Origin: Dehalococcoidia bacterium
GTDB taxonomy: Bacteria; Chloroflexota; Dehalococcoidia; Lucifugimonadales; Lucifugimonadaceae
Reading direction: 5' to 3'
NCBI GenBank assembly: GCA_028281895.1
Contig: JANQIZ010000238.1
Location: 1 to 45,308 of the forward strand
Length of the DNA: 45,308 nucleotides
The notes beneath the pieces are model-generated. The model was not told the DNA's origin and made no database searches. It saw nothing but the letters and a program-made list of their open reading frames with translations. Made by a program: the position numbers and the translations under genes. Shown here piece by piece: positions 1 through 6,036 of this stretch. How positions within the stretch are numbered: the first letter of the stretch is position 1; each line of letters begins with the position of its first letter.

Positions 1-1362
1 GAGGAATGCGCCCTTGTAGCCCGAGGTTGCAACAGCGAGCAGAGCCGATAGCGCAACAATCGTCTTGCCGCTACCGACTTCGCCCTGGAGCAGGCGCGCC
101 ATTGGAACGCCGCTCGCCATGTCTTCGAGGATCCTGTTCAAGGTCTGTTGCTGATCCTCTGTTAGCTCGAACTCAAGACCAGCAAGGAATTTCTCCGTCC
201 GCTCAATGCCATCTGAGATCTGGAGCGAACTCTTTCGTGATTGCCATGCATGGCGATTCCGGAGCACCAGTAGCTGATTAAGCAGCAGCTCGCTGAAGGC
301 CAGTCTGCGATGCGCAGTCTGTGCATCGGCTGCTGTGGACGGGTAGTGCATGTCCGATATGGCCTGGCGAAGACCGGGCATCGCATGCCTGGCGCGAATG
401 CTCTCAGGCAGTGAATCGGCCAGGAGCGGGCGTGACATGTCGATCGCCGCGCGGGTGGCGTTGCGCAGTGTGCGCTGTGCCAGCCCTTCGGTAGAGGGAT
501 ACACAGGGAGCAGGTTTCCCGCATGAGTCAGGCCGTCTGAGCCTCGACCGATCACCTCGTACTCCGGGTTCTCCAACTGGGCCTGGCCGCGGAACGCGTC
601 CACCTTGCCGCTCAACGCTATATCGGTGCCCGGCTTGAGACTGTCGGCAAGGTACGGCTGGCCAAAGAACGTGGCAGATAGCAGCCCGGATCGGTCGTTC
701 ACAAGAACCTTTGCTGCTCCACTCCTTCCGATAGACAGCTTCTCTGTCCGCACCACGTGTCCGACAACCGTTGTTTCCGCGCCGATCTCAAGATTCGCGA
801 TCTTAGTTGGACTTGAGTAGTCGATGTGCCTGCGCGGGAAGTGCCAGAGCAACTCACGCAAACTCGTGACGCCGGCCCGGCTCAGCTTGCCGACTGTGGG
901 ACGAGTGACGATGCCGAGATCTTTGATCGGCGTGTCAAGGGATTCGGGAGCCTTTGGCGGTTTGGCAGGTGCTGTCCGTCGTTGGGTAGCTGCGCGTTTC
1001 GATATAGGTTTTGCAGGTGAGCTGGAGTTGGCAACTCTGGCGCTTGGGCGGCGCTGGCGAGTCTTTGAACCAGGATCGGCTTCAGGAGCCTGACGGGACG
1101 ATGCCAGTCGCTCGAGCACGCGTTCAATCCAGATCTGCCGGTCGCCGGGTCCCATGGAAGCGTACGTCCCGGAGCCGCGGGGAGGAACAGTTTTCAGCCA
1201 AGGCAGTGCCGCGGTGAATGACTCTAGGAGCGCATCCAGGCCGCCGATGACTGCGCGGTCTGCATACTGTTGTGATCGTTCGTGCAGCAGGACGCGCCTG
1301 AGCCGGTCGACGGCATCCGGCCGTGAGCTTGTTCCGGCATTTCTAGAGGTACGGGTTGGCAC
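1..1362 (-). CDS. recG: ATP-dependent DNA helicase RecG, N-terminal portion (runs off the left edge of the window)
   Basis: Reverse-strand frame open from 1419 to 1 (upstream in-frame stop at 1420-1422). It reads ...PIKDLGIVTRPTVGKLSRAGVTSLRELLWHFPRRHIDYSS...(OB wedge)...FELTEDQQQTLNRILEDMASGVPMARLLQGEVGSGKTIVALSALLAVATSGYKGAFL, with the RecG wedge domain and Walker A. Start uncertain (GTG at 1362 is a candidate). Not in the ORF track because no stop lies inside the window. Confidence 0.9.
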   Translation of the reverse strand, partial: MPTRTSRNAGTSSRPDAVDRLRRVLLHERSQQYADRAVIGGLDALLESFTAALPWLKTVPPRGSGTYASMGPGDRQIWIERVLERLASSRQAPEADPGSKTRQRRPSARVANSSSPAKPISKRAATQRRTAPAKPPKAPESLDTPIKDLGIVTRPTVGKLSRAGVTSLRELLWHFPRRHIDYSSPTKIANLEIGAETTVVGHVVRTEKLSIGRSGAAKVLVNDRSGLLSATFFGQPYLADSLKPGTDIALSGKVDAFRGQAQLENPEYEVIGRGSDGLTHAGNLLPVYPSTEGLAQRTLRNATRAAIDMSRPLLADSLPESIRARHAMPGLRQAISDMHYPSTAADAQTAHRRLAFSELLLNQLLVLRNRHAWQSRKSSLQISDGIERTEKFLAGLEFELTEDQQQTLNRILEDMASGVPMARLLQGEVGSGKTIVALSALLAVATSGYKGAFL

Positions 1363-5142: not shown

Positions 5143-5178
5143 CAGCGCCGCGAACCTTCGACACGGCTCGCGGCGCTG
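5143..5178 (-). terminator. Putative intrinsic terminator downstream of the DUF4395 gene
   Basis: Perfect 11-bp inverted repeat CAGCGCCGCGA...TCGCGGCGCTG, 14-nt loop, followed on the minus strand by a T-rich run (tcgttcttgttt). Confidence 0.7.
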
Positions 5179-5204: not shown

Positions 5205-5789
5205 TCAGTTCTGACCGGTCGTGTCAGGCGGTGCGCACGGGTTGCCGTCAGTCAGCACGCCCTGTTCGGCCAGTCGCTGGAACCTGGCCTCTATGTTGGC
5301 GCAGTCTTCACAGACCGATTCAGGGATGATTCCGAACCGCATCAAGATGCTAAAGATCTTGCAGCCCAGGCAGTAGCCGAAGACGGCTTCGAGTCCAGCT
5401 GCGAAGATCAGCCCGCCGAGCACTCCGTATGAAGCTCCTGTCAGCCCAAAGCCGAAGTGCAGCACTATGGCCGTCACGCTGAATGCCACTCCTATCGCAG
5501 CTGCGAACCGCTTTGGAGGTCCAGCCACAGGCTTGTACCTGAGCTTCAGGATAGGAATGACGACCCGGAGCGCGAACTGCGCCAGTGGGCTTAGACGCGG
5601 TCCCGCGGCGACACGTGCGATGAACCCGTATGCGATGACGAACATGAGCCACTCGAACTGGAACACGATCGTCGCTGCTGATAGCACGACAACACCGGCG
5701 GCCACGGTTCGGGCAACGCTCTCATTGATTGGGTGCGGGAAGCTGAAGAAGGGCTGCTTCTCGATGTAATTCCCGGTGGCAGATGCCAT
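5205..5789 (-). CDS. DUF4395 domain-containing membrane protein with CxxC motifs
   Basis: 194 aa; MASATGNYIEKQPFFSFPHPINESVARTVAAGVVVLSAATIVFQFEWLMFVIAYGFIARVAAGPRLSPLAQFALRVVIP matches the DUF4395 pattern; C-terminal GYCLGCKIF and CEDC. Shine-Dalgarno AAGAGGAG at 5800-5807. Confidence 0.85.
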   Translation of the reverse strand: MASATGNYIEKQPFFSFPHPINESVARTVAAGVVVLSAATIVFQFEWLMFVIAYGFIARVAAGPRLSPLAQFALRVVIPILKLRYKPVAGPPKRFAAAIGVAFSVTAIVLHFGFGLTGASYGVLGGLIFAAGLEAVFGYCLGCKIFSILMRFGIIPESVCEDCANIEARFQRLAEQGVLTDGNPCAPPDTTGQN

Positions 5790-5827
5790 TTGCGGTCATC
5801 TCCTCTTGAATATCTGTGCGTTCAGGC

Positions 5828-5864
5828 AAAAAGAAAACCTCGGCCAGCAGTCGGCAGAGGTTTT
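5828..5864 (-). terminator. Intrinsic terminator of a putative Cys-responsive attenuator
   Basis: Minus strand AAAACCTCTGCCGACTGCTGGCCGAGGTTTTCTTTTT: stem AAAACCTC/GAGGTTTT plus GCC/GGC, followed by a U-tract. Confidence 0.85.
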
Positions 5865-5889
5865 TCAGAGTGATATCGCTGAAACGCGC

Positions 5890-5934
5890 TTAGCCGACTG
5901 CTGGCTCCTTACAGGTGCAACAGAGGCAAGTCAT
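5890..5934 (-). CDS. Cys-rich leader peptide MTCLCCTCKEPAVG
   Basis: ATG ACT TGC CTC TGT TGC ACC TGT AAG GAG CCA GCA GTC GGC TAA; 4 of 14 codons are Cys; sits immediately upstream of the terminator and the DUF4395 gene. No clear Shine-Dalgarno. Confidence 0.75.
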   Translation of the reverse strand: MTCLCCTCKEPAVG

Positions 5935-6036
5935 CACGATTCTGGCATTGAGTGCGCTCATCACTCTCAATCTTACTACTGCCGTCGAACTTTCGCCTGA
6001 AACTCAGTAGGTGAGAGAAGGTTTGGGCTGAATAAA

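Follow-up and report, generated by a model that had tools for sequence, protein, structure and literature searches.

A predicted cysteine-responsive transcription attenuator upstream of DUF4395 and sulfur genes in Dehalococcoidia

The trp, his and ilv attenuators of Proteobacteria and Actinobacteria consist of a leader ORF with tandem codons for the sensed amino acid, an antiterminator formed by regions 2 and 3, and an intrinsic terminator, with genes of biosynthesis or transport downstream. For cysteine, the closest described systems are actinobacterial. In mycobacteria, leaderless poly-Cys ORFs precede several sulfur operons per genome, with cysA2, nirA and Rv0485 as examples (PMC4633059), and two papers that cite Canestrari et al. 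2020 (PMC9031893, PMC13236596) describe their cysteine response as translation attenuation. Comparative work on actinobacterial Cys leaders likewise found short ORFs with runs of Cys codons before cysteine genes, yet no conserved terminators (PMC1262725). In the literature that we searched, no Cys attenuator has been described in Chloroflexota.

The locus analysed here, from the 2.8-Mb genome of a Dehalococcoidia bacterium, has the leader ORF, the region 2/3 antiterminator, the terminator and the kind of downstream genes known from the trp/his/ilv type, and differs from it in that the amino acid is cysteine, the ORF is apparently leaderless, the host belongs to Dehalococcoidia and the targets include DUF4395 and a tiny protein. 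With the mycobacterial ORFs it has in common a Cys run, in a probably leaderless ORF, before several sulfur operons of a genome and a presumed response to cysteine; the output element here, however, pairs an intrinsic terminator with an antiterminator, whereas the mycobacterial ORFs are described as acting on translation, and terminator hairpins occur at nearly every leader here whereas none was conserved in the actinobacterial comparison. Since the mycobacterial type is described as working on translation and the trp/his type uses terminators, the Dehalococcoidia leader shares its sensor with the one and its output with the other. We propose, with a probability of a little under nine in ten (about 0.87), that the locus is a ribosome-mediated transcription attenuator sensing the supply of cysteinyl-tRNA and that the same switch recurs at several operons as a cysteine regulon. 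This reading is based, by sequence and folding, on the ORF, its Cys run, the terminator, the alternative pairing, conservation and the target genes, from which we infer leader translation, a leaderless start, ribosome stalling and the response to cysteine.

Layout of the leader and terminator at the DUF4395 gene

All features of the locus lie on the minus strand of the window (the whole stretch of 45,308 nucleotides analysed). A short ORF ending with TAA at 5890 contains the codon run TGC CTC TGT TGC ACC TGT (5911–5928), that is, four Cys codons within six. The sequence-only reading had begun this ORF at ATG 5934, which gives the 14-aa peptide MTCLCCTCKEPAVG; its four Cys codons hold, but its start is not conserved. 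The frame remains open upstream as far as ATG 5961, and it is this codon rather than the internal ATG 5934 that matches the start position in relatives, where ORF length, Cys run and the distance from stop codon to terminator are kept as well. The true leader ORF is probably the 23-aa MSALNARIVMTCLCCTCKEPAVG (5890–5961 with its stop codon), of which the 14-aa ORF is the 3′ part. A candidate −10 promoter box for the leader transcript, TAAGAT (5970–5975), ends 8 nt before ATG 5961, and of 32 related leaders 28 have a TANNNT box 4–12 nt upstream of the start codon (mode 8–9 nt), compared with 23% in shuffles. Because the box of the window is placed as in its relatives, transcription of the leader would probably begin with the start codon or immediately beside it, making the ORF leaderless, with the transcription start predicted from the position of the box.

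Behind the leader ORF, the hairpin AAAACCTC-TGCCGACTGCTGGCC-GAGGTTTT (5834–5864) runs into the U-tract CTTTTT (5828–5833) and forms an intrinsic terminator between leader and DUF4395 gene, as it does in related leaders; the terminator segment of the window has a folding energy of −17.9 kcal/mol. The 5′ strand of the antiterminator (region 2), GCCAGCAGTCGGC (5893–5905), is an exact 13-bp complement of GCCGACTGCTGGC (5843–5855), the 3′ strand (region 3), which lies within the terminator hairpin. None of 5000 shuffles reached a complement of this length, the longest being 11 bp. The Shine-Dalgarno region AGAGGAG (GAGGAG core; 5799–5806) and the regulated gene (5205–5789) follow, the latter encoding a DUF4395 membrane protein of 194 aa. 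Direct reading thus bore out the sequence-only account of the Cys codons, the complement and the terminator, as well as the Shine-Dalgarno sequence and the DUF4395 gene behind them, the gene matching PF14340 with an E-value of 4.1e-32. In several genera, most of the GC-rich leaders have a CGCGC-like motif just behind the leader stop codon (5889–5883 in the window), which may belong to region 2 or to a pause hairpin. Shortly after the DUF4395 stop codon and before a ribulose-phosphate 3-epimerase gene lies a GC-rich hairpin, CAGCGCCGCGA...TCGCGGCGCTG (5143–5178). DUF4395 is probably a single-gene unit in the window.

This layout bears on whether the switch acts on translation, as reported for the mycobacterial poly-Cys ORFs (PMC9031893, PMC13236596), whose leaderless layout the present leaders probably share: stalling would then expose the ribosome-binding site of the downstream gene, and the hairpin would be incidental. 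Such a mechanism would go with a sequestered ribosome-binding site and no terminator. The Shine-Dalgarno sequence of the window lies instead outside the hairpin, which ends 28 nt before it, and the DUF4395 leaders, like all 30 folded leaders of other genes, have a hairpin with a U-tract directly behind. We therefore regard translation attenuation as very unlikely. Riboswitch control was also considered. T-boxes likewise sense uncharged tRNA and use terminators. Searches against Rfam, however, gave nothing for the window at the gathering score, nothing for the leader even at E-values up to 1, and nothing for eight related loci, and the Rfam cis-regulator families were rejected for want of a covariance-model match; a T-box or other known riboswitch is accordingly a most improbable controller of the gene.

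Alternative pairing and the proposed switch

Region 2 ends directly before the leader stop codon, and a ribosome at the stop therefore covers it. In constrained folding of the window sequence, the terminator had a probability of 0.00 in RNA free of ribosomes; placing a ribosome gave 0.00 at the first Cys codon, 0.07 at the last Cys codon and 1.00 at the stop codon. These values reproduce the two states foreseen in the sequence-only reading, in which a ribosome at the stop codon lets the terminator form and one at the Cys codons gives the antiterminator. According to the mechanism that we propose, RNA polymerase would start on ATG 5961 or immediately upstream of it, and the emerging leader would be translated without delay. 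In cells with ample cysteine, translation would run to the stop codon, the ribosome would cover region 2, the terminator would form and transcription would end ahead of DUF4395; under a shortage of Cys-tRNA, the ribosome would stall at the Cys codons, region 2 would pair with region 3, and DUF4395 would be transcribed for want of a terminator.

The 13-bp antiterminator is peculiar to the window and is short in its nearest relatives. At equilibrium, a clear switch was seen for the full transcript in only 5 of 32 leaders; in most relatives the terminator stays favoured despite a stalled ribosome, and these would need kinetic control. Timing would decide there, as in any co-transcriptional attenuator. 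Co-transcriptional folding was modelled on the RNA present when polymerase has only just cleared the hairpin loop, the ribosome footprint being masked. In the 32 DUF4395 leaders region 3 was sequestered at 0.86 with the ribosome at the first Cys codon, 0.31 at the stop codon and 0.64 in shuffled sequences; the corresponding values for 30 leaders of other genes were 0.91, 0.32 and 0.66 (combined p-values against shuffles count related sequences as independent). Such masked folding was more telling than duplex energy: comparison of duplex energy with shuffles of region 2 and swaps between genera gave a weak signal, because GC-rich sequences pair anyway. Four leaders (L025, L026, L016, L031) had an antiterminator no better than shuffles, and in several members of the window's own genus it was both short and no better than shuffles. 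Comparative support comes from genus g8, in which 94.2% of antiterminator cells are standard pairs, falling to 44–48% when the strands are slid. Double changes there replace U-A with C-G (three sequences) and G-C with A-U (one sequence). In genus g10, with six sequences and too few changes, the pair counts show no covariation.

Conservation in relatives and departure from chance

Short ORFs and terminators are each common, and some DUF4395 copies are without the arrangement, so that an ordinary terminator of another transcript might in principle lie beside a spurious Cys-rich ORF. When the 45-kb window was scanned mechanically for short ORFs that have four or more Cys codons in eight and are followed by a terminator, the DUF4395 leader was the one site found, and 60 dinucleotide-shuffled windows gave one match in total. 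Relatives were drawn from the same GTDB family (76 genomes, 52 of them with DUF4395, in 57 copies), the close ones (L058–L062) having 77–80% protein identity. Directly upstream of 32 distinct DUF4395 copies from six genera, an ORF of 19–26 aa contains a Cys run and is followed by a terminator, which begins 25–39 nt (50 in one case) past the first nucleotide of the leader stop codon. Cysteine makes up 124 of the 682 in-frame residues of these leaders (18.2%), compared with 11/714 (1.5%) and 8/714 (1.1%) in the other frames. Both Cys codons are used (TGC 47 times, TGT 77 times) while the remaining positions vary, and AT-rich genera have leaders such as MSNIYMRKCCCCCCCRNERFL. Both features by which the sequence-only reading had proposed to recognise the switch in relatives, Cys codons kept in a short ORF and compensatory changes, are present. 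With a site that is unique in the window, rare in shuffles, kept in six genera and found again before sulfur genes, the chance explanation has a negligible probability and is already refuted by conservation.

Two other genera of the family (L030 and L034; L047 and L050) have DUF4395 in second place after a 1-Cys peroxiredoxin gene, and here the poly-Cys leader (e.g. MKFYLTQTCCCCCCQDDNGV...) stands at the front of the operon, before the peroxiredoxin, an arrangement that is also found in another family of the class (L114). Counting the 32 direct cases and those at an operon front, a Cys leader is present for at least 36 of the family's 57 copies of DUF4395, and about one-third are without one. 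Outside the family, DUF4395 has a leader in other families of the order (L095, and L099 with a looser Cys run) and elsewhere in the class (L091). At none of 12 Actinomycetota DUF4395 loci checked was there a Cys leader; the link is therefore not a general property of DUF4395. DUF4395 occurs as tandem duplicates in several genomes of one genus (L014/L056, L009/L041, L005/L055), the second copy usually lacking a clear Cys leader of its own, although one genome (G049) has a leader-model match before the second copy.

Other genes behind the leader

A sequence-only model (R1) was built from the DUF4395 leaders and searched over the GTDB family, the search of the window's own genome resting on the same model, and the downstream genes at 20 model sites, one of them cut by a contig end, were identified with Pfam and NCBIfam. 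The APS/PAPS reductase gene cysH was downstream at eight of the 20 sites, followed at several of them by sat or cysDN. One of these sites (L142) is in the window's own genome (G000:C316, about 823–928, minus strand), where the leader MSSKFYCNCACTCRLTFETGVV and a terminator lie upstream of cysH. Elsewhere the leader precedes an O-acetylhomoserine sulfhydrylase gene with metA (metY-metA; L132), or a Sulf_transp (YedE/TsuA-like) protein with a rhodanese-type protein (L133). An unbiased check, in which cysH genes were collected by profile and their upstream regions then scanned for a Cys-run ORF and terminator, found the combination at 19 of 30 cysH genes in the family and at 0 of 29 elsewhere in the phylum; a twentieth case (L159) has a terminator that was picked up only by a later scan. 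Behind the leader, then, are sulfur genes that make or import the sensed amino acid: cysH, sat, cysDN, metY-metA, and Sulf_transp with rhodanese.

At nine of the 20 sites the downstream gene encodes a tiny unannotated protein of 37–44 aa (L140, L141, L143, L144, L147–L151; L143 is in the window's own genome, G000:C145). The protein is RRFVESVQGLAIES in the window's genus and FRRLINAVEGLGIEP in another, stands alone behind a Cys-rich leader and terminator, and had no Pfam match in the two members scanned. In another family of the order (L219), a Cys-containing leader, MLRISDTLCICSSPSSGGGVS, with a terminator precedes a gene starting MSLFVVQHKHAAETCPAGHPQ; this leader looks real. Weak model matches at two loci elsewhere in the order (L222, L223) lie in coding sequence and look like chance. 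DUF4395 adjoins cysK at one locus (L118) and a PALP-family cysteine-synthase-like gene at another (L094).

The nature of the targets and the variability of the leaders also help in judging whether the poly-Cys stretch might work as an arrest peptide, whose nascent chain responds to redox state or to a metal rather than gauging Cys-tRNA supply. Some leaders have up to 7–10 Cys, and one target operon includes a peroxiredoxin. The peptide is, however, highly variable outside the Cys codons, and Cys number and spacing vary too, all of which fits codon sensing; most identified targets, moreover, are genes of Cys biosynthesis and sulfur supply. An arrest peptide is thus very improbable, slightly more so than translation attenuation. 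The attenuator that we favour would operate as the same switch at cysH, sat, cysDN, metY-metA, Sulf_transp with rhodanese, 1-Cys peroxiredoxin with DUF4395, and the tiny protein. Because it precedes genes of sulfate assimilation and other sulfur genes, it very probably turns on DUF4395 and sulfur genes when the cell is short of cysteine, as judged from the genes behind it. The proposal of a Cys-supply sensor at DUF4395 in a non-actinobacterial lineage is supported as a reading but was too narrow in its single-gene scope, as sulfate-assimilation genes lie behind the switch as well. Recurrence of the switch at several operons of the family points to a cysteine regulon of cis-acting attenuators, and it is likely that this Dehalococcoidia regulon consists of repeated leaderless poly-Cys leader ORFs, each with an intrinsic terminator and with no need of a regulator protein, with DUF4395 and the 37–44-aa protein among its members.

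The DUF4395 gene product scores 111.7 bits against PF14340 (cut-off 24.5) and has several predicted membrane helices and conserved CLGC and CxxC motifs, with C140, C143, C160 and C163 invariant in 21 homologues; a structure model (pLDDT 79) had no significant match in the PDB. Its place in the regulon suggests that DUF4395 handles a sulfur compound or thiol.

Cysteine-directed attenuation has so far been known from mycobacteria, where it is described as translational, and before that solely as leader peptides lacking terminators. If the present reading is true, leaderless poly-Cys ORFs would be a wider regulatory device that extends to another phylum and possibly evolved more than once. Two families, DUF4395 and the tiny protein, would gain a testable role in sulfur supply, and the leaders could be used as a search signal for cysteine genes in uncultured bacteria.
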